Assembly (NCBI GenBank): GCA_031286205.1
Contig: JAITUR010000013.1
Location: forward strand, 1-48,466
DNA: 48,466 nt
Direction: 5' to 3'
From: Treponema sp.
GTDB lineage: Bacteria; Spirochaetota; Spirochaetia; Treponematales; Breznakiellaceae
Part shown: one piece after another, positions 3,993-37,480 of the stretch
How positions within the stretch are numbered: position 1 is the stretch's first letter
Layout of the letters: every line of letters starts with the position of its first letter
Notes under the pieces: generated by a model
The model's database searches: none
What the model was told of the DNA's origin: nothing
Seen by the model: the letters and a program-made list of their open reading frames with translations, nothing else
Program-made: the position numbers and the translations under genes

Positions 3993-4175
3993 TCAGGTAT
4001 GCTTTCGAGCAAGGAAGATTGCCGCTCTTTTTTGAACAATGGCGTTATATTCAGCCGATGTCAACTCTTTGCGTTCATCATGTATTTTTAGGCGAATTGC
4101 ATGAATTTCTCTAAGGGATTCCGGCTCTCTTGCAATATCCGGATCATTCATATATTCATCGATTGTTTTCATCAT
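3993..4175 (-). CDS. Small acidic protein coupled to PIN-domain gene, putative antitoxin
   Basis: A 60-residue charged protein with no membrane segment and no motif I can name. Its start overlaps the last 20 bases of the upstream PIN-domain gene, and its ribosome binding site GGAGG lies inside that gene, nine bases before the ATG. This translational coupling is typical of toxin–antitoxin pairs, and it would be the antitoxin, although the toxin-first order is the less common one. Two adjacent ATG codons (4175, 4172) are possible starts. The function is inferred from context only. Confidence 0.6.
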   Translation of the reverse strand: MMKTIDEYMNDPDIAREPESLREIHAIRLKIHDERKELTSAEYNAIVQKRAAIFLARKHT

Positions 4176-4647
4176 GTTCTAACACCTCCGCAGGGGCATG
4201 AATAAATACCCGCTTAAATCCTTCACGAGCGTTGATAATTTCTGTTTGAATTATTGTTTTATGCTTCACAATATGTCTAAAATTCAAACTAATAATATAG
4301 TCAAGATTTGCAATAGTTGCAGCAGCAATATGAAGCGCATCCGGAGAGTATTTTTTTGGAATAACCCCTTCAGCTATATACAAGTCAGCAAGCCGTATTA
4401 TTTCATCATTCCCAGGTATAACTTCAACCTTGTTGTCAATAATAAGGGCTTTCATTTCTTTAAGTTTCTCAGGATCTTTTGTTTCCTCAAGTTCGTCAAG
4501 TACATACTCAGATGTGAAAGGTCTAAATTTCCCAGATTTTATTTCTGCAAACAACCGAAGTGTATCAGCGCGATATTGCGGGGCATCACTAGCAAAGGGA
4601 AAATTAAAAATCGTAGTTTCAAGATAAATTTTAGGTATACGCAACAT
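4156..4647 (-). CDS. PIN-domain protein, putative RNase toxin
   Basis: A 163-residue protein starting MLRIPKIYLETTIFNFPFAS. PIN-fold RNases place an early acidic residue at the end of the first strand; here the segment IYLETTIFN fits the subgroup with E in that place, followed by conserved acidic residues in VLDELEET (middle) and YSPDALHIAAA (later), and a final strand LDYIISLNFRHI. Such proteins cleave RNA with Mg2+. The ATG at 4647 is chosen over 4665 because a -10 box (4654–4659) covers the region between them. It is the first gene of a pair with the small gene at 3993–4175. Confidence 0.75.
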   Translation of the reverse strand: MLRIPKIYLETTIFNFPFASDAPQYRADTLRLFAEIKSGKFRPFTSEYVLDELEETKDPEKLKEMKALIIDNKVEVIPGNDEIIRLADLYIAEGVIPKKYSPDALHIAAATIANLDYIISLNFRHIVKHKTIIQTEIINAREGFKRVFIHAPAEVLEHDENNR

Positions 4648-7956: not shown

Positions 7957-10900
7957 ATGTTACATATAGGAATAGATGTAGGTTCGACAACTGTTAAAAC
8001 TGTTGTTATTCAACCTGAAACAAAAGAAATTTTATTTTCAAGATACGAACGGCATAATGCCTGCCAGAGCGAAAAAGTATATGAGTTTTTGCAGGAAATA
8101 TTTAAAAAATATCCGCAAGAACAGTTCAGCGCGGCATTTTGCGGTTCCGGCGGCAGAATCATAGCCGATCTTGTTCATGCCCCATATATTCAGGAAGTTG
8201 TCGCAAATTCCATTGCTGTCCGTGCTTTTTATCCGCAGGCAAAAGTAGCGGTAGAATTGGGCGGTCAGGATGCAAAAATAGTTTTCTTTTACAAAGATTC
8301 CGCCTCCGGCCGCTTAATGGCGGGCGATATGCGCATGAACGGAAGCTGCGCGGGCGGAACCGGCGCTTTTATAGACGAGGTAGCGTCTCTTTTGCGAATC
8401 CCTGTAGAAGAGTTCGATGCCCTTGCCGCCAAAGGAACCCAGGTTTATGACATTTCCGGCCGCTGCGGTGTTTTTGCAAAAACCGATATTCAGCCTTTGT
8501 TAAATCAGGGCGGTCTTTTGGAAGATATTGCTCTTTCAACTTTTCATGCTATTGCCAAACAGACAATCGGCGGACTTGCGCAAGGTTTGGAAATTAAACC
8601 GCCCGTCGTATTCGAAGGCGGCCCTCTTACATTTAACCCAACGCTTATAAAAGTATTTCAGGAAAGACTTGCGCTGGAAAACAGCGATATTATTCTGCCG
8701 CCAAAAGCGGAATTGTTTATTGCATACGGAGCCGCGCTGTCCATTAATGAAATGTTTAATAAAGAAATTAAGGACGATAAACAGCCGGCGGACAAAAAAC
8801 AATTTACTCCGGATGCCGTGCTTACTTCGTTATCAATGTACAGAGAAATCGTAAGCGGCAATACCGTAAATGTAAATTTAAACTTTTTTAATAATGATGC
8901 GGAACGCGAAGAATTTACCAATCGTCACAAAATGCCTGTTCTTAAACATGATATTTCATCGCTGGGGCTTAACAAGGGCGATACCCTAAAAGTTTATATG
9001 GGCATAGATGCCGGTTCTACAACAACAAAATTTGTACTAATCGATAAAAACGAAAATGTAGTTGACAGTTTTTACAGCCCCAACAAAGGAGAACCTCTAA
9101 AAGTTATCCGTCAGGCTTTACTGGACATGAACGAAAAATACAAAGAAGCGGGCATTACTCTGGAAGTTATCGCAATGGGTACTACCGGTTACGGCGAACT
9201 TCTTTTCGATAAAGCATTAGGCGCGGATTTCCATACGGTAGAAACAGTAGCGCATGTAGCGGCAGCGCAAAAATATATTCCGGGTGTCAGTTTTATTTTG
9301 GATATTGGCGGCCAGGATATGAAGGCTATCAATATTTCCAACGGAATCGTAACAAATATAACGGTTAACGAAGCTTGTTCGTCGGGCTGCGGATCGTTTT
9401 TGGAAACATTTGCGGAAAACCTAAAAATCCCCGTAGATAAAATTGCAGAAGCCGCGCTTTCCGCAAAAAATCCTGCCCGCCTTGGAAGCAGGTGTACGGT
9501 TTTTATGAACAGTACAATTATTACCGAGCAAAAAAATGGCAAACAGGCAGACGATATAATGGCGGGTTTGTGCCGGTCTATCATAGAAAATGTTTTTACA
9601 AAAGTTGTGCGAATTTCCAACCCCGCGCAGTTGGGCGATAAAATTGTCGTACAGGGCGGAACTCTAAAAAACGATGCCGTCCTGCGCGCATTCGAACAAT
9701 ACCTTGGAAAAAATATAGTCCGTGCTCCCTTCCCCGGAGAAATGGGCGCTATAGGAATAGCGTTATTAACAAAAAGAGAAATCGAAGAAAACGGCTATAC
9801 ATCGCCTCATGGACCCAGCGACAGAACCCGTTTTATGGGGTTCGATAAACTAAAAGAATTCAGTTATACACAGCATCCGAATTTAATTTGTCCGTTCTGC
9901 GCAAATAGTTGCAATCGTACTCTTGTAAAATTTTCCAACGGACTTACATGGGTTACAGGCAACCGATGCGAACGCGGCGAACTTGTAGGAGATGCTCAAG
10001 ATCCCGGCATTAAAGAACAAATAAAAAATATTACAAAGCAAATGAACGCTGTTCCAGATATGATAAAAATACGCGAGGAGCTTTTATTTAAGGATTATGA
10101 TTTTAAGCAGCTTCTTCCGCAAAAAGATATAACAATCGGCTTGCCGCGTGTTTTGGATTTTTGGCGCAATATGCCTTTCTGGAAAGTATTTTGGAATGCG
10201 CTGGGCTTTAAGATAAAAATATCCAAAAAAAGTTCGCGTTATCTTTACGAAAAAGGCTTACAATATGTTGCATCCGATACCGTTTGTTTCCCCGCAAAAT
10301 TGGTTCATGGTCATATTCAGGATTTAATAGAAAGCAAGGTAGACCGTATTTTCTTCCCGCAAATTAACCGCCTGCCTCCCGAGAATCCGGAGCCAACAAG
10401 TACATTTACCTGCCCGGTATTAAAAGGTTATCCGCTTTCCATTAAACATTCGGATAACCCGGAAGAAAAACATAATATTCCTTTGGATTCTCCCATTTGC
10501 CACTGGTTTTCCGAAAGAGATATAGAATACCAGCTTTCAAAATTTATAAAAGATACTTTTAATATCCCTGTAAAAACAACATTGGCGGCAATTAAACAGG
10601 GCAATAAAGCAATGGAAAAATTTAAATCCGAGTTAACGGAACATGGAAAAAAGATTATCAGCGATACGGAAAAAGAAGGCAATTTTGCGGTTGTTATTGC
10701 AGGCCGTCATTATCAATACGATGAACATATAAATCATAATCTTTCGCGTTATTTTACAAGCATAGGTATTCCAGTTTTAACTGTGGATTCTTTGCCGGAT
10801 CTTAAAAAAGTTAAATTAGATAAATCAACAATAGAAATTACAAATAATAATCATGCCAATTTATTGTCATCTGCTATAATTGCTGCAGAACATCCTGCAT

Positions 10901-27366: not shown

Positions 27367-29217
27367 ATGAAGGAAAATCAAAGTTTAAGAATTTTTGTTT
27401 TAACAATATTACTTGTTTTTGTTTTTATTATATACACAGTTAGACTTTTTAGTATGCAGATACTTTCTGGCGAAGTTTACAGAACAAGGGCGCAGGAATT
27501 TTCCAGAAGAACATATAAAATACCGACACAAAGAGGCGAAATCTTTGACAGAAATTATGACGCTCCAATGGTAATAAACAGAGATTCATTCGGCGTAAGC
27601 ATTACACCTGCAGAAGTACCCAGAAATAAAATAGACGAAATCCTGATATCCCTTTCCGATATAATCGGTATTCCTGCCGATGAAATAAGAGAAAAACTCC
27701 CGACTCAGTATTTTCAGCTGTATCAGCCTGTAGAAATAGCGTCTAACGCAAGTTTTTCCATAATAGCGGCATTGGCGGAAAGAAAAAACGAGCTTCCGGG
27801 TGTATCTTGGCAAAGTAAATTTATTCGTAATTATGTCGATGCGGAAAGTCTTTCGCATATTTTAGGTTATGTCGGGGATATTAATCGCGAAGAACTAACG
27901 CAGCTTTATAATCTTGGGTATCAGCAGGGCGATGTTATCGGCAAAATGGGAATAGAAAAACAATATGATCAGCTTTTAAGAGGAAAAGACGGCTGGGAAA
28001 CAAGAACAGTAGATGTCCGCGGAAGGCGTGTCAGCGACAGGGAAAATATAATTAGAGTGCCTCCGGAAATGGGAAAAAATTTAATTTTAACGATAGATGC
28101 TAATTTACAAACATTGGTAGAAAAAGCTCTTGGTCCGCGTATAGGATCCATAGTTGTCCTAAAACCCGCTACAGGAGAAATCCTTGCAATGGTTTCTTAT
28201 CCCTGGTATGATCCGAATATTTTTACAGAGGGGCTTCGTTCGGATTATCTTCTCTTGCTGGATGATCCAAATAAACCTTTTATTAACAGGGCAATTTCTT
28301 CTGCGTATCCGCCGGCTTCAACCTGGAAAATATTAATGACAACGGCGGTTCTTGCAGAAAGAACATTTCCGCCGGATCAGACAGTTTTATGCCGCGGACA
28401 TATAGGTTTTGGCAACCGTGACTGGCACTGTCATAACCGTTTTCCGGGGCATGGCAGATTAAACTTAAGAAGAGGGTTAGCAATGTCCTGTAATATTTAT
28501 TATTGGACTATTGGAAGAGATCATCTTGGAGCGGATAGAATTATTAATTACTCCAGAATTTTTGGTCTTGATCAATTAACCGGAATTGATATACCCGGAG
28601 AAATACCCGGACTTATCCCGACACCGCAATGGAAAGAAACTCGTATGCACGAAAGATGGGTTGCGGGCGATACAATGAATATGTCAATAGGACAGGGTTA
28701 TATAAATGTTACTCCAATTCAAATGGCTAATATGGTAGCTATGATTGTTAATAACGGGAAAATATATAAACCGCACTTATTAAAAGAAGTAAGAGACCCA
28801 GTAACGGGCGCGATAGAACATATTGTTACGCCGGAATTACTGCACGAAAGCGATATATCTCCGGCTGTTTTTGAAACCGTAAGACAGAATATGAGAGCGG
28901 TTATAACGGAAGGAACCGCTGTGTATCCCTTAAATTTAAGAACTGTTCAGATTGCCGGAAAAACCGGAACAGGAGAAGCAGGATATACCGACAGATGGCA
29001 TTCATGGTTTACGGCATATGCACCTTACAACAGTACGGATATAGATGATACAATTGTTGTATCTGTTGTTGTAGAAGCGGCAAATAAATGGGAATGGTGG
29101 GCTCCCTATGCCTCTGCAATGATTTTCCACGGATATTTTAATAATCAAACTTACGAAGAAACAATCAGGGCTTTGGGGTTTCATCATTTACCTTCGATAC
29201 AAGGGCGGCGCGAATGA
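27367..29217 (+). CDS. mrdA: Penicillin-binding protein 2 (elongasome transpeptidase)
   Basis: A 616-residue class B PBP that cross-links lateral wall peptidoglycan. One N-terminal span (about 8–26), the pedestal domain (RRTYKIPTQRGEIFDRN), then the transpeptidase domain: active-site S318 in YPPASTWK (SxxK), MSCNIYYW as the SxN motif, and AGKTGTGEAG (KTG, about residue 534). All catalytic motifs are intact. It shares four bases (ATGA) with rodA, its glycosyltransferase partner. Confidence 0.95.
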   Translation: MKENQSLRIFVLTILLVFVFIIYTVRLFSMQILSGEVYRTRAQEFSRRTYKIPTQRGEIFDRNYDAPMVINRDSFGVSITPAEVPRNKIDEILISLSDIIGIPADEIREKLPTQYFQLYQPVEIASNASFSIIAALAERKNELPGVSWQSKFIRNYVDAESLSHILGYVGDINREELTQLYNLGYQQGDVIGKMGIEKQYDQLLRGKDGWETRTVDVRGRRVSDRENIIRVPPEMGKNLILTIDANLQTLVEKALGPRIGSIVVLKPATGEILAMVSYPWYDPNIFTEGLRSDYLLLLDDPNKPFINRAISSAYPPASTWKILMTTAVLAERTFPPDQTVLCRGHIGFGNRDWHCHNRFPGHGRLNLRRGLAMSCNIYYWTIGRDHLGADRIINYSRIFGLDQLTGIDIPGEIPGLIPTPQWKETRMHERWVAGDTMNMSIGQGYINVTPIQMANMVAMIVNNGKIYKPHLLKEVRDPVTGAIEHIVTPELLHESDISPAVFETVRQNMRAVITEGTAVYPLNLRTVQIAGKTGTGEAGYTDRWHSWFTAYAPYNSTDIDDTIVVSVVVEAANKWEWWAPYASAMIFHGYFNNQTYEETIRALGFHHLPSIQGRRE

Positions 29218-30524
29218 AGTATAAAGATTTGTTAAAAATTGATTATTTATTGCTGTTGCCTGTTCTTATTCTTTTGGTATTGGGAATACTTTATATATAT
29301 TCTTCCGGCATAACCCACGAAGGAAATCTTGTATCCAATGAATATTTAAGACAGATTATCTGGGCTTCTGTAGGTTTAATTGTTTCTTTTATTCTTTCCA
29401 TGGTAAATTACAGAAAATTTTATAATATTGCAATTTATATTTATATTTTTTCTTTAATACCTTTATTATACACAGTTGTTTTTGGAAAAGTTGTTTTTGG
29501 CGCTGCAAGATGGTTAAGAATTGGTATCTTTGGCGGACAGATGTCTGAATTTATAAAGATTACCGTTATTATTTTACTTGCGCGTTTTCTTGCAGATACA
29601 GATCATAACAAAAAAACTTTTTCGCGTTTTATTGCAAGCTGTATAATTGTCGGTATTCCCATGTTTATTGTTCTTTTACAGCCTGACCTTGGAACAGCAA
29701 TGGTTTATTTGGCAATTTTAATTACAATGGTATTTTTATCCGGTGTTTCCATGCGCTATATTACTTTTATGATTGCGTGTATTGCATTAACAGGATTATT
29801 TTTAGTTCTGCCTTTATGGCAGACACATATTTGGAAAAAATCCATGCCTTTTATGGCTCTTCTTACAAGCCCAAGAATATTAACTTTGGTTGTTTTGTTC
29901 TTTGCCGTAATTGCTGCCATAGCCCTTTTTGGATATTTAAAATATAAAAAGAAATATTTTTACTGGATTGTTTATATTCCATCTATACTTATAATTTCTG
30001 TTGTTACATCTTTTGCCGCCCGTTTAATTTTAAAACAATATCAGCTAATGCGGTTAATTGTATTTTTAGATCCCAATGTCGATCCCAGGGGCGCAGGCTG
30101 GAATATTATCCAGTCCATGACAGCAATAGGAGCGGGGGGGCTTACAGGCATGGGCTATTTACAGGGTACTCAAAGCCATTACAGATTTTTACCTGAACAA
30201 AGCACGGATTTTATTTTCTCCATTTATTCCGAAGAAACAGGCTTTCTTGGCGGTCTTTTGATTTTTGCCATGTTTTTATTAATTTGCTTCCGGATTATAA
30301 CAACATTAAAAACTACCGCAGACCCCTTTGGAAAATATATGTGTGCGGGTTTTTTGGCAATGTATAGTTTTCACTTTATTATTAATGTTGGCATGACAAT
30401 GGGTATTATGCCGGTTACAGGACTGCCTTTATTATTCATGTCATATGGAGGTTCGGCAGTTTTAAGCTCTATGATAGGCATTGGACTATTATTAAGTATT
30501 TACATAAGAAGGTTTAATCGTTGA
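29214..30524 (+). CDS. rodA: Rod-shape-determining peptidoglycan glycosyltransferase RodA
   Basis: A 436-residue SEDS protein with about ten membrane spans that polymerises lipid II with PBP2. Typical segments are YIYSSGITHEGN near the start, QPDLGTAMVYLAI (the SEDS Q/L-PDLGTA motif), DPNVDPRGAGWNIIQSMTAIGAGG, QSHYRFLPEQSTDFIFSIYSEETG, and the C-terminal GIMPVTGLPLLFMSYGGSA. A central extra membrane stretch (about residues 215–265) makes it longer than the usual 370–400. Its TGA overlaps the TTG start of the next gene. Confidence 0.95.
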   Translation: MKYKDLLKIDYLLLLPVLILLVLGILYIYSSGITHEGNLVSNEYLRQIIWASVGLIVSFILSMVNYRKFYNIAIYIYIFSLIPLLYTVVFGKVVFGAARWLRIGIFGGQMSEFIKITVIILLARFLADTDHNKKTFSRFIASCIIVGIPMFIVLLQPDLGTAMVYLAILITMVFLSGVSMRYITFMIACIALTGLFLVLPLWQTHIWKKSMPFMALLTSPRILTLVVLFFAVIAAIALFGYLKYKKKYFYWIVYIPSILIISVVTSFAARLILKQYQLMRLIVFLDPNVDPRGAGWNIIQSMTAIGAGGLTGMGYLQGTQSHYRFLPEQSTDFIFSIYSEETGFLGGLLIFAMFLLICFRIITTLKTTADPFGKYMCAGFLAMYSFHFIINVGMTMGIMPVTGLPLLFMSYGGSAVLSSMIGIGLLLSIYIRRFNR

Positions 30525-32938
30525 GATATGTTAATTCCGTTAAAGATTTGGGAGGTCTTTTACTTTCTGTAGGAAAGCCCGGTCGTTATACAGGCGGTGA
30601 ATACGGAATAACCGCAAAAAAAGATGCAGCGCTAAAAACAGTTATTGCTTTTCCCGATCTTTATGAAATTGGAATGGGAAATCAGGCGCTTCGTATTATC
30701 TACAACCGTATAAACGAACTTCCCGATGTTTTGTGCGATCGTGCTTTTGCACCTGCCCCGGATTTTGAAAAACTCTTAAAAGAAAACTCTATTCCCCTTT
30801 ACGGATTAGATACAGGGCTTGCGCTTTGTAATTTTGATATAGTAATGTTTACGATTGGCTACGAGCTGGGGTTAAACGGCGTATTAACAATGTTAAACGC
30901 AGGCAGTATTCCTTTACGCAGTAATGCCAGAGGAAATAATATGCCGGTTGTAATAGCGGGTGGTCCTGTTGTATCTAATCCAATTCCGTTTTCTCCGTTT
31001 ATAGATGCATTTTGGATAGGAGAGGCAGAAGCTGGTTTTTTTGATTTAGTGCAAGAGTTGTCGGAAACTAAAAAAGCAGGGCAGGGGAGTGCTCCTGCAA
31101 GAGAACAGCTGTTAAAAAAAATATCCGCTCATCCCAGCGTATTTGTTAAGGGCAAGGAAAAAACAGTACGCGCCATCCATACCGGATTTTCTGCAGATAT
31201 AAAATCGTCTATATATCCGATACCAAGCATGAAAATTATTCAAAATCATGGAACTGTAGAAATAATGCGCGGATGCCCTAATGGATGTAGATTTTGCCAT
31301 GCCGGTTTTTGGTACAGACCAATGCGGCAGAAAAACCGTGATTTAATAATACAGCAGGCCGAGGATATAGTAAATAAAAGCGGGTGGCAGCAAATAAGTT
31401 TGTCATCATTGTCATCGGGCGATTACTGCGGTGTCTCTGAACTGGTAGAAACACTAAACGGTAAGTTTGCGGACAAACATGTTTCCTTTCAGATGCCGTC
31501 GCTTAAAGTATCCGGATTTTCGCTTGATCTTTTGGAAAAGATTTCTATAACAAGAAAAAGCGGGCTTACATTTGCCGTGGAAACCCCTTTGGATATGCTG
31601 CAGATGGCAATTAACAAAGAAGTTACAAGAGATTCTATTGTTTCTATTTTAGAAGAAGCAAAAAAACGCGGCTGGAAAAGCGCCAAGTTTTATTTTATGA
31701 TAGGGCTGCCTGTTGGCTGTAACCAGGAAAACGAATATTTCGAAGAAAAGGAAATTGTTGATTTTATATTTGATGTAAGCCGAAGAACAAGATTAAAGTT
31801 TAATATAAATGTGGGAGTTTTTATTCCCAAACCGCACACACCTTATCAGCATGCCGCACAGATAGGCGCGGAAGAAGCAAAAGAAAAATTATATTTTATA
31901 AGATCGAAGCTTAAGCCGTTAGGACATAAAGTTAGTACTTCTAATTTGCTTATATCCAAAATAGAGGGGCTCTTAAGCAGGGGAGACGAAAGGGCGGGGT
32001 ATCTTTGCGAAAAAGTTTTTATGGAAGGCAGCCGCTTGGATGCATGGGATGAATATATCAATAAGGAAAAATGGGAAGAACATTTAAATGAAAATATCGA
32101 TTTATTAAACGAAACCTTGTCCGGCAGTATACCGCCTCCCTGGAGCTGCATTGAATCCGGAATAAATATGGAGTATCTGCAAAACGAATTGGAAAAATCA
32201 AATAACTGTCAAAGGACATCTCCATGCGAAGAAATGTGTAAAAAGTGCAGTCTATGTAATAACAGTGTAAAAATTACTAAAAATATGGATTTTACAGATA
32301 TTGCAATATCTACGACTGATAATACCGACAAAAATATCGTTAACCATAACAAAACATCGGTTAACAAAGGTATATTTAGATTAATTTTCAGTTTTAGCAA
32401 GAAAGGAAGTGCGGTTTTTCACGGACATTTAAGCCTGATAGATATTTTTTCCATGTCGTTTAGGCGTGCGGGCATTTCTGTCATGTTTACCCAGGGGTTT
32501 AACCCTTTAGCCAAGATGGAATTTGCGGCTCCTTTGACAACCGGAATAAGCTCAGACTGCGAGATAGCTTTGGTTGATTTTTACGAAGAGCCAAATACCA
32601 AAGTATTTATAGAAAATCTTAATAAAAGCCTTCCTGAAGGAATCTTTGTTAAAGAAGCCGAATATTTTTACATACCGCATGGGACCAAGCATTATTCCTT
32701 GTCGTCGCTTTTATGGGGAGCTGCATATTCGGCTGGCGATAAAATCGACTATATAGAATTTACGCAGGAAAAAAACTACAGGCAAAGTCGTCTGGAAAAA
32801 GATTGCAAAAGTTTGTTCGAATTAAACCGCGCGGATGTTCTTGCTAAAAATATAATTAACAATACAAAAGAATGGGCTTCGTATTTTGATGTTTATAAAC
32901 ACCTATATATTGGTAGACAGAATATACATTATGCTTAG
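30521..32938 (+). CDS. Radical SAM protein fused to DUF2344 domain (TIGR03960/TIGR03936 type)
   Basis: An 805-residue fusion. The first half is a B12-binding-like radical SAM protein with the CxxxCxxC cluster at C252, C256 and C259 (RGCPNGCRFCHAGFWYRP) and the family start MRYVNSVKDLGGLLLSVGKPGRYTGGE (in part). From about residue 625 the DUF2344 domain begins (RLIFSFSKKGSAVFHGHLSL, RRAGISVMFTQGFNP). The reaction is unknown; such genes often lie beside rodA or rng. The start is a TTG overlapping the rodA stop (TTGA). The last codons, …Asn-Ile-His-Tyr-Ala-stop, lie inside the left copy of the prophage repeat, so this gene's 3' end is the attachment site. Confidence 0.88.
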   Translation: MRYVNSVKDLGGLLLSVGKPGRYTGGEYGITAKKDAALKTVIAFPDLYEIGMGNQALRIIYNRINELPDVLCDRAFAPAPDFEKLLKENSIPLYGLDTGLALCNFDIVMFTIGYELGLNGVLTMLNAGSIPLRSNARGNNMPVVIAGGPVVSNPIPFSPFIDAFWIGEAEAGFFDLVQELSETKKAGQGSAPAREQLLKKISAHPSVFVKGKEKTVRAIHTGFSADIKSSIYPIPSMKIIQNHGTVEIMRGCPNGCRFCHAGFWYRPMRQKNRDLIIQQAEDIVNKSGWQQISLSSLSSGDYCGVSELVETLNGKFADKHVSFQMPSLKVSGFSLDLLEKISITRKSGLTFAVETPLDMLQMAINKEVTRDSIVSILEEAKKRGWKSAKFYFMIGLPVGCNQENEYFEEKEIVDFIFDVSRRTRLKFNINVGVFIPKPHTPYQHAAQIGAEEAKEKLYFIRSKLKPLGHKVSTSNLLISKIEGLLSRGDERAGYLCEKVFMEGSRLDAWDEYINKEKWEEHLNENIDLLNETLSGSIPPPWSCIESGINMEYLQNELEKSNNCQRTSPCEEMCKKCSLCNNSVKITKNMDFTDIAISTTDNTDKNIVNHNKTSVNKGIFRLIFSFSKKGSAVFHGHLSLIDIFSMSFRRAGISVMFTQGFNPLAKMEFAAPLTTGISSDCEIALVDFYEEPNTKVFIENLNKSLPEGIFVKEAEYFYIPHGTKHYSLSSLLWGAAYSAGDKIDYIEFTQEKNYRQSRLEKDCKSLFELNRADVLAKNIINNTKEWASYFDVYKHLYIGRQNIHYA

Positions 32939-32944
32939 TAAAAC
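32912..32944 (-). other. Left prophage attachment site (dif-like)
   Basis: The 23 bases 32922–32944 are repeated exactly at 37458–37480. Read on the minus strand, the site contains GCATAATGTATAT, identical to the E. coli dif core. By alignment with dif the XerC-type arm is ACTAAGCATAA (32939–32929), the central region TGTATA (32928–32923) and the XerD-type arm TTCTGTCTACC (32922–32912). The XerD arm is host coding sequence and fits dif poorly. The repeat includes the TAG stop of the radical SAM gene. Confidence 0.75.
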
Positions 32945-32965: not shown

Positions 32966-33838
32966 TTATAAACGACCTTTTTTAGTCATTTGCTTTCTAG
33001 CGCTCATTTGCTTTCTTCGACGCTCATTGTCGCTAGCAATCAAATCTAATAATTCATGATCGTTTAACTCTTTGTAATAATCAAGTTTTTCTGATCGACT
33101 TTTTTCAGCGGCTTGTTTAAGATAGAATTCTTCAGGTGAACCTTCTTTAATTAATTTCTTCCAGTAATATCTAGGAAGACCTACGTGTTTACCTTTATTA
33201 GTAAATCCTCTCTCGCTAACCACTGTCTCTATATGCTCCTTCGCATAGTTTAAGCCAATACCTTGACTTTGTAATTGAAATGGCGCCAATTTTCCACTGT
33301 ATTCGGTTTCTGCCATTTCTCCGTTTAATTTTTTTCTTATGTACCCAACTGTGTACTGCACAGCGTCTCTGTCTGCTGAACCAATTGTGTTATTTCCGTA
33401 CAACCACAACTTTTCAATTTCTTTCGAAGCACGCTGTCCGTAAGCAACCTTGTAAGTAGCTTTAGGATCGTGTCGCCAGCCAATAGTGATAATGTGGTAA
33501 TGAGGTCTTTTAGTTTCGCTTTCACCATATTCTCCACTTGCTATAAATTTTATTTTTTGTTTACCAATATATTTTCTCAAACGCTTGATAAACAACTGAA
33601 GATCACGCTTGACAAGCGTTCCCCCTTCAGGCAAATTCTCTTTACTGTAAGTCAATGTTATAAATGATCCTACAGTACCGTGTAATTCGTGCATTACTCG
33701 CAAGGTCCATTCTCCTGTTTGTCTTATGCGGCAAGCCATGCATTTACCGCAATGATAACCGACAATTTTTCTTGGACCGTCATTAAATAAAGTATGTCCT
33801 TCCAAAAGACCGGACCTGAACCTATTAGTACACGACAA
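32966..33838 (-). CDS. Microvirus replication initiation protein VP4
   Basis: A 290-residue rolling-circle initiator. N-terminal cysteines HCGKCMACR (30–36) match the PCGKCxxCR start of VP4; the HUH metal motif is RPHYHIITIG with H113 and H115; the catalytic tyrosine region is QYTVGYIRKK (Y162, Y166, K169). It would nick the double-stranded replicative form to start single-strand synthesis. The start is a TTG at 33838–33836 that directly follows the VP8 stop codon. It is the last gene of the prophage; its stop is 21 bases from the left repeat. Confidence 0.92.
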   Translation of the reverse strand: MSCTNRFRSGLLEGHTLFNDGPRKIVGYHCGKCMACRIRQTGEWTLRVMHELHGTVGSFITLTYSKENLPEGGTLVKRDLQLFIKRLRKYIGKQKIKFIASGEYGESETKRPHYHIITIGWRHDPKATYKVAYGQRASKEIEKLWLYGNNTIGSADRDAVQYTVGYIRKKLNGEMAETEYSGKLAPFQLQSQGIGLNYAKEHIETVVSERGFTNKGKHVGLPRYYWKKLIKEGSPEEFYLKQAAEKSRSEKLDYYKELNDHELLDLIASDNERRRKQMSARKQMTKKGRL

Positions 33839-33952
33839 TTACAACCTGATGCCGCCACGACTTGCATGGTAAGATCGTAAGCGACGTCCACGACGGCGTT
33901 TTAATTTACGTCCGCCACGGAAAGATCTACGTCTTTTTCTGAAATTAATCAC
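33839..33952 (-). CDS. Microvirus small basic DNA-packaging protein VP8
   Basis: A 37-residue, strongly basic peptide beginning VINFRKRRRSFRGG and ending HASRGGIRL. The C-terminal RGGIRL is the hallmark of gokushovirus VP8, which binds the single-stranded genome in the capsid like protein J of phiX174. The start is a GTG at 33952 with AAGGGGG immediately upstream; an in-frame TAA further up excludes a longer form. It lies between orf27 and VP4; its TAA touches the TTG start of VP4. Confidence 0.82.
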   Translation of the reverse strand: MINFRKRRRSFRGGRKLKRRRGRRLRSYHASRGGIRL

Positions 33953-33958
33953 CCCCTT

Positions 33959-34042
33959 TTATTTTTTTGTGAATTGATTCACTATCCAAACAACGAAAAG
34001 AAATGTTGATAAAAGTAATAATAATAATATAATTCCAAACAT
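33959..34042 (-). CDS. 27-residue single-span membrane peptide, candidate lysis protein
   Basis: The peptide MFGIILLLLLLSTFLFVVWI followed by VNQFTKK is one hydrophobic helix of about 20 residues with a polar, basic end. Its ATG shares a base with the VP2 stop codon (TGATG on the minus strand), which gives strong translational coupling, and it ends seven bases before the VP8 start. It resembles no microvirus protein I know. Small membrane peptides are the usual means by which single-stranded DNA and RNA phages lyse cells, and no other lysis gene is visible in this prophage. The function is an inference. Confidence 0.6.
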   Translation of the reverse strand: MFGIILLLLLLSTFLFVVWIVNQFTKK

Positions 34043-34833
34043 CATCTTTTTTGCTCCAAAGCTTGCATTAAATAATTAAGATAATAATCAGCTTCGGGAT
34101 CACCTCTTTGAATCATAACAAGAGCTTTTTCAAGCGTAGCTGATAACTTACCGAAATCAATACCAGCAATTCTTACATCACCACTATTCTCCATGTGGTA
34201 AGCACCGGTACGAACATTTTCCAGCCTATTTCTAATATCCCAGGCTTGATCAAGCTGCCTTCGTTGAGTTTGAGACATTGTCTCCTTTTCTTGTGCTTGC
34301 ATATTTTTTATACGCTGATCTATTTCTTGCATTTGTTTAGTATGCACATCTTGGAAAACATTATTCTGTTGCCTTTGCCATTCAGTAGTCGCTCTTATTC
34401 TTTCAGCATCTGCCATTGTATGGTGTATGTCTGCTTTCTGCTTCATAAGCTCCATCGCGGCGTAATTCATTTGTAATTTATGAGCCATTTTTTGCTCGTT
34501 GGTTTCTCTCATGCCTTGTGTATTTGGCGCTGTAGTGGGCACGTGGGAGCCTGCACCTGCCGCAGAGCCTGCGGCTAATACTGGGCTCAAACCTGCTTTT
34601 TTTAAGTCAGCTACTCTACGTTCAACGGCATTATCTTCACGGTCAAATATAGCTTGCTGTATTTTTTTGTCATAATCCCATTTTTGGACTTGGAAATCAT
34701 GATCACGTCTAGCCAAGTCCATATTCTCCTGAAACATACGTTCATTCTGCATTCTATCCTGATTCTGATTATACTGATTCATACCTTGCTGTAAAAAATT
34801 ATCAGCGAAATTTGCCATAGTTAACAAATCCAT
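34042..34833 (-). CDS. Microvirus minor capsid / DNA pilot protein VP2
   Basis: A 263-residue protein with long amphipathic helices rich in Q, N and M, and the VP2 signature RRVADLKKAGLSPVLAAGSAAGAG (about residues 72–95; in part KKAGLSPVLAAGSAAGAG). VP2 is thought to act like pilot protein H of phiX174 and guide DNA into the cell. GGAG lies seven bases before the ATG. The stop codon overlaps the start of the 27-residue membrane peptide. Confidence 0.9.
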   Translation of the reverse strand: MDLLTMANFADNFLQQGMNQYNQNQDRMQNERMFQENMDLARRDHDFQVQKWDYDKKIQQAIFDREDNAVERRVADLKKAGLSPVLAAGSAAGAGSHVPTTAPNTQGMRETNEQKMAHKLQMNYAAMELMKQKADIHHTMADAERIRATTEWQRQQNNVFQDVHTKQMQEIDQRIKNMQAQEKETMSQTQRRQLDQAWDIRNRLENVRTGAYHMENSGDVRIAGIDFGKLSATLEKALVMIQRGDPEADYYLNYLMQALEQKR

Positions 34834-34909: not shown

Positions 34910-35080
34910 TTAGTCTTTGTAAGGGAGCCGGACCGGCTCCCTGTTAATAGTTTTTGGACTCCGCAGAGAAGCCAAAAATTCCCTCTTTCTCTGAAGCCAG
35001 GCTTCATATTCTAGCTCATCTTTCCTAAGTTTGCGCTCATACCATTCCAGAACATCAACCTTATCACTGTTCTGGCTCAC
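34910..35080 (-). CDS. Small charged prophage protein (orf56), function unknown
   Basis: A 56-residue protein, mostly one charged helix: VDVLEWYERKLRKDELEYEA, then WLQRKREFLASLRSPK. The GTG start at 35080 has GGAG ten bases upstream and overlaps the end of the VP3-like gene by 17 bases. Its 3' end contains a perfect GC-rich palindrome. No relative is recognised. The overlap, the ribosome binding site and the filling of an otherwise empty 230-base gap argue that it is real. Confidence 0.5.
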   Translation of the reverse strand: MSQNSDKVDVLEWYERKLRKDELEYEAWLQRKREFLASLRSPKTINREPVRLPYKD

Positions 35081-35444
35081 TTGTCAACTCCTTTTTTACA
35101 GGCTCTGGTTCGGTCGTAGAGGGGGCTGTATTCGCTTCAGATGGGGGTTCGGGTATCTTTCGTTCATTTTGCGCTCTGTAACGCAATACAGACACCCTGT
35201 CAGCTAAATCTACGGGATCAAGCTCGTAAATATCAGCGGCATCCTCAACCTCTTCGTCAAATTCACCTTCGATAGTGTCCAGAAGACCATGTCGATAAGC
35301 TTCAAGCCGCTTTCCAGCGGCTTGCATAGATTCGACAATTTCCTTTGTGGTTTGATAACCTGTTTGTTCCGTGATGAGAATATTGGACATCTTCACACCA
35401 TCGGTCGGCTTATAATTATACCGCGTATTAAATTTTGTAGACAT
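35064..35444 (-). CDS. Probable microvirus internal scaffolding protein VP3
   Basis: A 126-residue acidic protein without membrane segments. It begins MSTKFNTRYNYKPTDGVKMS, similar in style to VP3 proteins with a basic N-terminus, and has helical, acidic middle (LDTIEGEFDEEVEDAADIYE) and a proline-rich acidic tail (PEPPSEANTAPSTTEPEPVKK). Size and charge fit the scaffold that assembles VP1 into procapsids. In most gokushoviruses VP3 lies before VP1; here it follows it, nine bases after the VP1 stop, with AAGGAG as ribosome binding site. The call is by position and type. Confidence 0.6.
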   Translation of the reverse strand: MSTKFNTRYNYKPTDGVKMSNILITEQTGYQTTKEIVESMQAAGKRLEAYRHGLLDTIEGEFDEEVEDAADIYELDPVDLADRVSVLRYRAQNERKIPEPPSEANTAPSTTEPEPVKKELTSEPEQ

Positions 35445-35452
35445 AAAACTCC

Positions 35453-37123
35453 TTAATTATGGTCAATAAGACCGGGTTCAGCCATGAAAGGCATAGGTCT
35501 GGTAACGTGGCATTTATTACCAAATGATATTAAGAACATGGGGTCAACATGAGAAGCTAAAGGACGCTTCATAGCAAATCGTTCTGCTTCGTTAGGTGCA
35601 ACTAAATCAGCATTAAGCGTAGGCGCTGATGAAAACTTACGGGCTAATTGCCAGTACTCAAATTCATCTCTGAACATTCCGTGGACCGTATTACGCTTAA
35701 ACCGATACTCGTCATACCTACCTTGATAGCCAATCACACGATCAACCAAATCAGGGGCAAAGTTGTAGAGCTCCTCAAAGTAGACAGCTTGCTCCGATAA
35801 GTTAGCAAACACAGGAAAGTAATGATCATACTTACTATCCTTAAGCCAAACACGATCAATTCCTTGTTGGTACATAGTCCGAGGCATTATAGACATCAAG
35901 CCCATAATCAAACCGGGTTCTTGGACCCGATAACTCGAAATATAATTGCTGTCAGCACTTATTCCATGACCTGCCATATTACCTTGTGGGGAAACCTGAT
36001 CACTTGAAGAAGTTTGAAGAACCTCTGAAATGACAAGAGGAGTTTTTGAGCCACCAATATACTCCGGACGTTGCAGTCTATCATCTCTAGGATTAGCATT
36101 AAATTGACCCTTTAAGAATTCAACGTAGCGGGATCCTGTACGAGCAGATCTTTCCATAAAGCGTTGAAGCTGGAATAAAAATCTTAATTCAGAAACATCA
36201 AATGTAGATACATTATCCAAGCTAACTTGATTTTTATTCAAGGCACCCCTTAGAGTTCCAATACTTTCGGGAAGATATGTTGGTCCACCTGCCCTAAAAC
36301 CATAACTTACTTCCGAAGTTCCAAAAGATACTCTTTGTGCGACATCAACGGCGGAGGTAGTTTCTAATTGTTCTGAATGTGGAGGGAGAGAAAAAACAGA
36401 ATCATAAAAATCTGCAAATGTATCACCATGTAAACCTATAGAAACAGGCTCGCCTCTCTGTTGCCAGGGCAACATAGATGTAAAATAATCCTTCTCCCAA
36501 CACCTAACTCTAAGACCAGCATTCTTGCCAGCACCTACTAAGGTACCATCAACCTCAATTCCTTCGTCAGGGGAACGCATATCACGCAAACCTACTTCAT
36601 CCATAATATTTGGATCGCGATAATATTCATTCCAAATCAAATTGTAGGCATACAAAGGAAAAGCTAAAGGCATCTTTACAATATCATGATACGTCTGTGA
36701 ACCACTGATAGTATTAAAACCAAAGTAATCCCAAAGAGATCCAGATCTAAAGTAATCATCTATATTTCCAGTAAACCATGAAGGATCTATCCTTGGCATA
36801 TCAGCTACAAATTTACCATCTTGTCCACCAGTAAAGAAGTTTTCCCATTGCTCCCACAACAAACGATACGGAACAAAATAGTAATGCGTAAAAATGTTTA
36901 TCTCGTGCATCAGCGGACACATGACCGGGTTCATACGCAAAACCATGCTATTCGCTATCTGCCAAAAATCTCCTGCAATACAATCATCAAGAAGGATTGG
37001 ATACAGGAAAAACATTTCGGCGGATAACCTTTTTTCGTGGGATAAATTGAATTTATTTCTTGGAACTCTTGGACGCTTAACGGTCTTAAATTGTCGACCT
37101 CTTTTAGCTTGGCGTTCACTCAT
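35453..37123 (-). CDS. Microvirus major capsid protein VP1 (F protein)
   Basis: A 556-residue single-jelly-roll capsid protein. The family start PRNKFNLSHEKRLSAEMFFL, the INIFTHYYFVPYRLLWEQWENF segment and the C-terminal HVTRPMPFMAEPGLIDH are typical of Gokushovirinae and related microviruses. The ATG at 37123 is preferred to a TTG at 37135; GAGG lies five bases upstream. The start overlaps the last codons of VP5. Internal insertions relative to phiX174 F are expected for gokushovirus spikes, and the region around residues 210–300 is the likely one. Confidence 0.94.
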   Translation of the reverse strand: MSERQAKRGRQFKTVKRPRVPRNKFNLSHEKRLSAEMFFLYPILLDDCIAGDFWQIANSMVLRMNPVMCPLMHEINIFTHYYFVPYRLLWEQWENFFTGGQDGKFVADMPRIDPSWFTGNIDDYFRSGSLWDYFGFNTISGSQTYHDIVKMPLAFPLYAYNLIWNEYYRDPNIMDEVGLRDMRSPDEGIEVDGTLVGAGKNAGLRVRCWEKDYFTSMLPWQQRGEPVSIGLHGDTFADFYDSVFSLPPHSEQLETTSAVDVAQRVSFGTSEVSYGFRAGGPTYLPESIGTLRGALNKNQVSLDNVSTFDVSELRFLFQLQRFMERSARTGSRYVEFLKGQFNANPRDDRLQRPEYIGGSKTPLVISEVLQTSSSDQVSPQGNMAGHGISADSNYISSYRVQEPGLIMGLMSIMPRTMYQQGIDRVWLKDSKYDHYFPVFANLSEQAVYFEELYNFAPDLVDRVIGYQGRYDEYRFKRNTVHGMFRDEFEYWQLARKFSSAPTLNADLVAPNEAERFAMKRPLASHVDPMFLISFGNKCHVTRPMPFMAEPGLIDHN

Positions 37124-37370
37124 TAGTAACCTCAACTTGCTCTAATTCAGAGATCATAACTCTGCGGGCTTTTTCCAAGCCCATTATAGATATTTGCTCC
37201 GTATCAAAGCCACCGAGGCAATAAAGCCAGAAATCCGTAGGGGTAATGCTCTTATCCCTGTCCATGCTTGCTAAAAATATTCTAATAGCAGAACCGTCAG
37301 TCCTTGCACAAAACAGGGGAGCGCACTCCTCTGCAACCCTATCATAAACCGTGTAAATTTTAGTTTTCAT
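37116..37370 (-). CDS. Microvirus non-structural protein VP5
   Basis: An 84-residue protein. KIYTVYDRVAEECAPLFCAR, then DGSAIRIFLASMDRD and DFWLYCLGGFDTEQISI, match the non-structural VP5/ORF5 family of gokushoviruses (pattern LYDxxA…PF…AIR-F…DF-LY-IG-FD). It is thought to help switch from double- to single-strand DNA synthesis. It is the first gene of the prophage; AAGGA lies eight bases before the ATG, and TATTAT further up may be the -10 box. Its end overlaps the VP1 start by eight bases. Confidence 0.85.
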   Translation of the reverse strand: MKTKIYTVYDRVAEECAPLFCARTDGSAIRIFLASMDRDKSITPTDFWLYCLGGFDTEQISIMGLEKARRVMISELEQVEVTNE

Positions 37371-37447: not shown

Positions 37448-37480
37448 AAGCGACAACATATACATTATGCTTAGTAAAAC
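37448..37480 (-). other. Right prophage attachment site (dif-like)
   Basis: Bases 37458–37480 repeat 32922–32944 exactly. On the minus strand the XerC-type arm is ACTAAGCATAA (37475–37465), the central region TGTATA (37464–37459), and the XerD-type arm TGTTGTCGCTT (37458–37448) is prophage DNA that differs from the left site. Host DNA starts at 37481; the 41 bases to the next gene (37481–37521) are AT-rich. Confidence 0.75.

Follow-up and report, generated by a model that had tools for sequence, protein, structure and literature searches.

A one-span micropeptide frame at the VP2 stop codon of a gokushovirus-type prophage in Treponema as a candidate single-gene lysis protein

Gokushoviruses are very common phages of guts and waters, and their exit from the host is an open question. 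Passages of PMC7062461 describe a lysis gene as markedly absent from gokushovirus genomes, and acquired M15 peptidases are proposed for lysis in some microviruses in a section of PMC3394797. The window analysed in this study, a stretch of 48,466 nucleotides from a Treponema sp. contig, raises this question through a very short hydrophobic frame that opens on the stop codon of a VP2 gene. Is this frame a phage gene, and might its product be what lyses the cell?

The prophage and the frame on its VP2 stop codon

The carrier of the frame is an integrated gokushovirus-type prophage on the minus strand, at about 32.9–37.5 kb, in a bacterial chromosome and not a free virus genome. An F-type capsid, a replication initiator, a pilot protein and ORF5 were found in one direction within about 4.5 kb, in the gene order VP5, VP1, VP3, a 56-aa ORF, VP2, the micropeptide, VP8 and VP4, all on the minus strand. 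VP5 (37116..37370) matched PF20577 Phage_ORF5 (E = 8.9e-15), and the major capsid protein VP1 (35453..37123) matched PF02305 Phage_F (E = 1.8e-93). The scaffold VP3 (35064..35444) was assigned only by its position between VP1 and VP2, and neither VP3 nor the 56-aa soluble ORF overlapping its end (34910..35080) had a family match of weight. The DNA pilot protein VP2 (34042..34833, 263 aa) matched the PHROG 'pilot protein for DNA ejection' (E = 3.9e-8), and the replication initiator VP4 (32966..33838, 290 aa) matched PF23343 (E = 7.4e-20) and PHROG 942 (E = 1.7e-72); the TTG start of VP4 comes immediately after the VP8 stop. VP8, a small basic DNA-binding protein (33839..33952), was recognised by its position and by its motif, namely the RSYHASRGGIRL end common to the VP8 of the window and the VP8 of its relatives. 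Its frame opens with a GTG, and this start codon is uncertain: the GTG falls inside VP8's own ribosome-binding-site-like stretch (33947-33958, minus strand), so that the true start may be a rare codon (ATT) slightly downstream. Pfam and PHROGs profile searches with the prophage proteins gave no peptidase or endolysin match.

The prophage is present in one copy in its source genome. Its att copies are 29-nt direct repeats, 93% identical and spaced 4536 nt apart, at 32916..32944, where the repeat overlaps the 3' end of a host radical-SAM gene, and at 37452..37480; the repeat may be dif-like. The host flank consists of a RodA/FtsW-type gene (29214-30524) and the radical-SAM gene, which ends at 32938. 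Microvirus prophages of different species in several spirochaete genomes occupy this same chromosomal neighbourhood beside radical-SAM/RodA genes, as seen in a comparison of the window with the prophages L081, L082 and L208 (att repeats of the last at 4250-4282 and 9034-9066), and collinearity with the window extends to both sides of L082, despite a VP1 identity of only 48%.

The micropeptide ORF (33959..34045, minus strand) overlaps the VP2 stop codon, and its product is MMFGIILLLLLLSTFLFVVWIVNQFTKK. On the minus strand the VP2 3' end reads TTGGAGCAAAAAAGATGATG, with AAA AGA TGA as the final codons and the stop TGA at 34044-34042, and both candidate ATGs, at 34045 and 34042, overlap this stop (ATGA and TGATG). 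The one-span hydrophobic frame that a sequence-only reading had placed on TGATG is indeed there, at 34042-33959 from the second ATG. Its stated length of 27 residues holds for that ATG; however, a GGAG ribosome-binding site (34054..34057) lies within the last VP2 codons, 8 nt 5' of the first ATG, and because this spacing suits the first ATG better, a product of 28 residues is the likelier one. The stop codon of the micropeptide (33961-33959) is followed by 6 nt, rather than the seven bases given before, up to the GTG opening the VP8 frame at 33952. Directly 3' of this stop lies AAGGGGGTGATT (33947..33958), a strong ribosome-binding-site-like stretch, which would be the translation signal of VP8.

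By hydropathy alone, the product would be small and membrane-associated, with 28 aa, a KD15 (15-residue mean Kyte-Doolittle value) of 3.21, a single uncharged core of 26 residues, and flank charges of 0 at the N-terminus and +2 at the C-terminus. It is the sole ORF with KD15≥3.0 among the 508 ORFs of 20–60 aa in the window, nine of which reach KD15≥2.5, and the only other ATG/GTG ORF of such hydropathy in the prophage lies within VP1. A comparable ORF arose in 1 of 5000 dinucleotide shuffles of the VP2–VP8 gap, a control that accounts only partly for the short (TTA)n stretch from which the leucine run stems. Searches of Pfam, PHROGs and NCBIfam gave the micropeptide no match at E≤1, and at E≤10 there was none to a PDB sequence. 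A tblastn search against phages was likewise empty at E≤10; masking of the query by the low-complexity filter is the probable reason.

Junction peptides in related microviruses

Relatives were gathered by VP1, VP2 and VP4 searches. The best GenBank records share 54–56% identity with the window VP1 over most of the protein, and the window VP2 and VP4, like the VP2 of the IMG/VR genome L023, have few or no relatives in IMG/VR. The window clade comprises 22 genomes (the window, records L074–L080, prophages L081 and L082, and records L209–L220), of which the 19 GenBank relatives were picked by their similarity to the window or L078 and not at random; L081 is identical to L067. In 18 of the 22, including prophages L082 (same genus) and L081 (same family), VP8 follows VP2 almost at once (a gap of 44 nt at most) and a peptide is absent. 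All four genomes with a gap of at least 60 nt (window 89, L078 415, L209 220 and L220 91 nt) carry a one-span ORF whose start lies no more than 4 nt from the VP2 stop, behind GGAG in the window and AGGAGG in the other three. The hydrophobic short frame for which the sequence-only reading proposed to look at the VP2–VP8 junction of relatives is present in four clade genomes, whereas in the remaining 18 the junction is too short to hold it.

The three equivalents in L078, L209 and L220, from bajarodmic viruses 192, 125 and 991, respectively, were annotated by the GenBank submitters as hypothetical proteins (XHH65458.1, XHH65024.1 and XHH71450.1; 33, 48 and 32 aa), so the view that such a peptide escapes ordinary gene calling holds only in part. 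They share with the window peptide the place at the VP2 stop, the ribosome-binding site, one span and the basic tail; XHH65458.1 is the closest in sequence, and a clear sequence match to the window is confined to the tail of this virus 192 peptide. Database searches with the three peptides matched each to itself only, and family searches with the junction peptides gave matches at noise level throughout.

In a VP1 phylogeny of 38 rows, L078 is the sister of the window (support 93/85, just below the starred level), and the presence of the peptide needs at least six changes on this tree, which means that the peptide comes and goes. The window and L078 peptides have a similar tail, VWIVNQFTKK and IWIVLRFTRKK, the tail ends compared being VVWIVNQFTKK for the window and VIWIVLRFTRKK for L078. 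The score of this pair was equalled in 6 of 3000 full shuffles and in 175 of 3000 shuffles in which the span and tails were shuffled apart, so that the similarity is only marginal by the latter measure. The same place, the sister lineage and the matching tail, taken together, make it likely, albeit not proven, that the two peptides represent one shared gene. Beyond L078, no sequence conservation of the window micropeptide was seen among the junction peptides. A degenerate DNA pattern for the shared tail found 43 IMG/VR stretches, none with a VP1 match, and these were taken as chance.

The sequence-only reading had named missing conservation in close relatives as evidence against itself, and the absence from 18 of the 22 clade genomes does count against it, although single-gene lysis proteins, too, normally come and go in this way.

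Outside the clade, the same-order spirochaete prophage L208 has a similar ORF (8907-9026) with an in-frame ATG 1 nt past the VP2 stop. This ORF ends 7 nt short of the att repeat; host DNA as its source was ruled out, since the att repeat (9034) lies outside the ORF end (9026), which places the ORF in the phage. Near its start the L208 peptide has YIDPGYGS, presumably a motif known from small bacterial membrane proteins. In L023, a one-span ORF is fitted exactly between VP2 and VP8 behind AAGGAGG, and the L220 ORF is as tightly packed at its junction as those of L023 and the window.

The frequency of such ORFs was estimated over 98 distinct VP2–VP8 junctions, a junction being retained only if an ORF of VP2 size preceded it and the gap measured -60 to 500 nt. 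In a separate, broader survey, 61 of 153 loci were dropped for having no recognised VP8. A gap of at least 60 nt was found at 43 of the 98 junctions, and 7 of these 43 held an ORF with KD15≥2.4 whose start fell from -45 to +25 relative to the VP2 stop, whereas shuffled gaps predict 0.24. Leaving out the window, which is among the seven, six remain. Five had a ribosome-binding site (0.04 expected), and five were seen at KD15≥2.8 (0.03 expected). The junction spans of L020 and L124, recorded in that broader survey, fall outside the limits of this stricter count and were left uncounted. The charge pattern of N≤0 and C≥+2 was present in 6/6 junction peptides tested (the window, L078, L209, L220, L208 and L023; L116, also among the seven, was not included). 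It was present in 29/133 TM-like ORFs encoded by the same strand in these loci, and this comparison set includes some of the junction peptides themselves. As like ORFs recur at the VP2 stop with a ribosome-binding site and a basic tail, and the sister lineage has a similar peptide, the micropeptide is probably a real phage gene, and its translation, for which the sequence-only reading had argued from the overlap, is very probable on these sequence grounds.

The VP2–VP8 gap of other microviruses holds soluble conserved small ORFs (L126/L143/L158; L144/L149/L155; L010/L058), so this site takes several kinds of accessory gene, and lysis does not follow from position alone. For the peptide-less relatives, a conserved overprinted span at some other place was also considered and dropped, as no common place emerged among 15 clade genomes. 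In many bajarodmic relatives, an arginine-rich second mini-ORF overlaps the VP8 stop (ATGA), as if VP8 had been doubled or split (L074 3220-3279, L075 3150-3254, L076 3247-3354, and also L077, L079, L080, L211 and L219).

Lysis and other possible roles of the micropeptide

We regard the micropeptide as a candidate single-gene lysis protein, with a probability of about 0.5. Ribosomes finishing VP2 would restart at the overlapping ATGATG, aided by the GGAG in the VP2 tail (translational coupling), and the product would be a one-span inner-membrane micropeptide with its neutral N-terminus outside and its short basic C-terminus inside. Late in infection, copies of this helix may bind to and inhibit a membrane-embedded, MraY- or MurJ-like step in the synthesis of the cell wall, upon which the growing cell would burst. 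Four points suggest this function: no muralytic gene was found in the prophage; the membrane span is about the size of the 29-residue phiX174 E span reported to inhibit MraY in passages of PMC5039524; expression appears coupled to VP2; and turnover is fast, as in other single-gene lysis proteins according to a portion of PMC10229422.

Concerning phiX174 E, PMC5039524 makes this span responsible for MraY inhibition and a proline within it critical; the span alone is about as long as the whole window peptide. Like E, the MraY inhibitor of Bullavirinae, the window peptide is a small one-span microvirus peptide with a predicted cytoplasmic C-terminal part, but unlike E, it has no long cytoplasmic domain and no proline in the span, and neither a lysis family of Pfam or NCBIfam nor any PDB sequence matched it. 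The expression of E is tied to another gene, which is a further likeness; E lies inside a D-type gene, whereas the window peptide sits after VP2. Single-gene lysis proteins are described in a part of PMC10229422 as very diverse, often overlapping other genes and thought to converge on membrane cell-wall proteins, and like those of the ssRNA phages treated there (MS2 L, Sgl-M and Sgl-PP7), the window peptide would be a short membrane-associated product that overlaps or adjoins other genes. In contrast to them, it comes from an ssDNA prophage, and no sequence relation to them was seen. An LS pair, a feature of the L-type proteins, occurs in its span, but 4 of the 13 peptides compared have one, so it is of little meaning. 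If lytic, the 28-aa peptide would rank among the smallest single-gene lysis proteins.

Several observations stand against lysis. There is no homology to protein E, and the critical proline of E is absent from the micropeptide. If lysis is essential, the 18 clade genomes without a junction peptide must lyse otherwise. Furthermore, EC6098 (L160), which forms plaques according to a passage of PMC7062461, does so despite a VP2–VP8 gap of 2 nt, with no room for a junction peptide. The statement that gokushoviruses lack a recognised counterpart of E agrees with what PMC7062461 says, in the part concerned, of a missing lysis gene, but in the phiMH2K record, orfN (3997-4326, 109 aa), which lies inside the replication gene, is annotated with a similarity to phiX174 E and K. 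This orfN is a gokushovirus small ORF like that of the window, but it differs in lying within the replication gene and in being less hydrophobic (KD15 2.35), and no orfN-like ORF was found in the window VP4.

A real membrane micropeptide might instead serve superinfection exclusion or the control of a host membrane protein, which we consider unlikely. The carrier is a prophage, lysogens of a related gokushovirus are immune to superinfection as stated in a passage of PMC7062461, and the patchy presence (18 of 22 clade genomes without the peptide) would suit a lysis gene and an accessory trait equally; however, L078, L209 and L220, whose genomes are recorded solely as circular viruses, have an ORF of this kind, the coupling to VP2 points to late expression, and no Pfam, PHROGs or NCBIfam family was matched.

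The frame could also be a translational spacer that carries ribosomes from VP2 to the VP8 start, with an irrelevant peptide sequence. It reaches from the VP2 stop to the VP8 ribosome-binding site, 6 nt short of the VP8 frame, and the ORFs of L023 and L220 are packed as tightly. Yet most clade relatives couple VP2 and VP8 directly by short gaps, and a spacer needs neither a membrane span nor a basic tail, whereas 7/43 gapped junctions hold spans against 0.24 expected, which renders this explanation improbable. The location between the genes of the pilot protein and the DNA-binding protein would fit a virion or assembly accessory, namely a membrane or packaging helper of VP2 or VP8, but most relatives that retain VP2 and VP8 are without the peptide and its sequence conservation was not seen beyond L078, so that we hold this role to be quite improbable. 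An untranslated chance frame in an AT-rich (TTA)n stretch is very improbable: 28 codons are short, the leucine run is (TTA)n and KD15≥2.5 is reached by 9/508 ORFs, but KD15 3.0 is reached by only 1/508 ORFs and 1/5000 shuffles, and the ORF recurs with ribosome-binding sites in relatives, with a like peptide in the sister lineage.

A frame overprinted on VP2 in Enterogokushovirus

In EC6098, an unannotated +1-frame ORF (4192-4287, 31 aa, KD15 3.54) lies over the VP2 3' end. A one-span +1-frame ORF over the variable VP2 3' end was found in 9/9 Enterogokushovirus sequences (EC6098, L221–L226, L228 and L229, which is Microvirus mar4; L227, a copy of EC6098, was left out, and L222 and L230 are the same strain). 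In the E. coli prophages L221–L226, the +1 frame is open, encodes a hydrophobic stretch and terminates 65 or 53 nt short of the VP2 stop, with a basic tail on most of the ORFs and none in one type (L224 and L225); L228 and mar4 agree with this pattern. The start codons of the ORF differ (ATG, GTG and TTG).

In the last 60 VP2 codons, the +1 frame reached KD19≥2.8 in 9/9 Enterogokushovirus sequences, which are related to one another; of the 94 VP2 genes from other microviruses, one did so (two at KD19≥2.5). No sequence of the nine reached KD19≥2.8 in the other three VP2 bins, a result that depends on the binning, as a slightly different cut shows a hydrophobic +1 stretch at the very start of the L226 VP2 and in codons 69–98 of the mar4 VP2. 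T-rich third codon positions make +1 frames hydrophobic, and further hydrophobic +1 stretches exist in VP1 and VP4 of EC6098 and in VP4 of mar4. When synonymous codons were permuted, the observed +1 hydropathy lay in the upper tail in 8/8 sequences (3/4000 to 275/4000), the highest value, that of L226, not being significant by itself. Among VP2 genes outside Enterogokushovirus, an alternative-frame span (KD19≥2.5) in the last 90 codons was present only in L081, L023 and L028.

The Enterogokushovirus ORF resembles that of the window in its one span, its mostly basic tail and its location at the VP2 3' end, but it lies wholly inside VP2 and in frame +1, whereas the window ORF is in frame +2, and homology is not established. 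It can be regarded as a supporting lead, not a proof, for a membrane gene at the VP2 end. A broader proposal, to which we give somewhat less than an even chance, is that gokushoviruses carry a lysis gene at the VP2 3' end, encoding a fast-evolving and repeatedly replaced one-span micropeptide. Its two forms would be a gene overprinted on VP2 in the +1 frame (Enterogokushovirus) and a gene freed just past the VP2 stop (the window, bajarodmic viruses 192, 125 and 991, the same-order prophage L208, and L023). If so, the variable VP2 C-terminus of the E. coli prophages would be the mark of a second gene. Overprinted genes were omitted from the survey of PMC9239249, as a section of it indicates, and the open-access literature, to which our search was confined with subscription papers outside its scope, contained no recognisable report of a junction peptide or a VP2-overprinted ORF.

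With a 28-residue candidate and a like ORF in EC6098, which is grown in E. coli, the question of gokushovirus lysis becomes directly testable, and the window peptide, if lytic, would lend itself to probing a membrane target of cell-wall synthesis in spirochaetes. Microvirus mar4 has both the span overprinted on VP2 and a separate 32-aa junction ORF (2533-2631), which is annotated as hypothetical.
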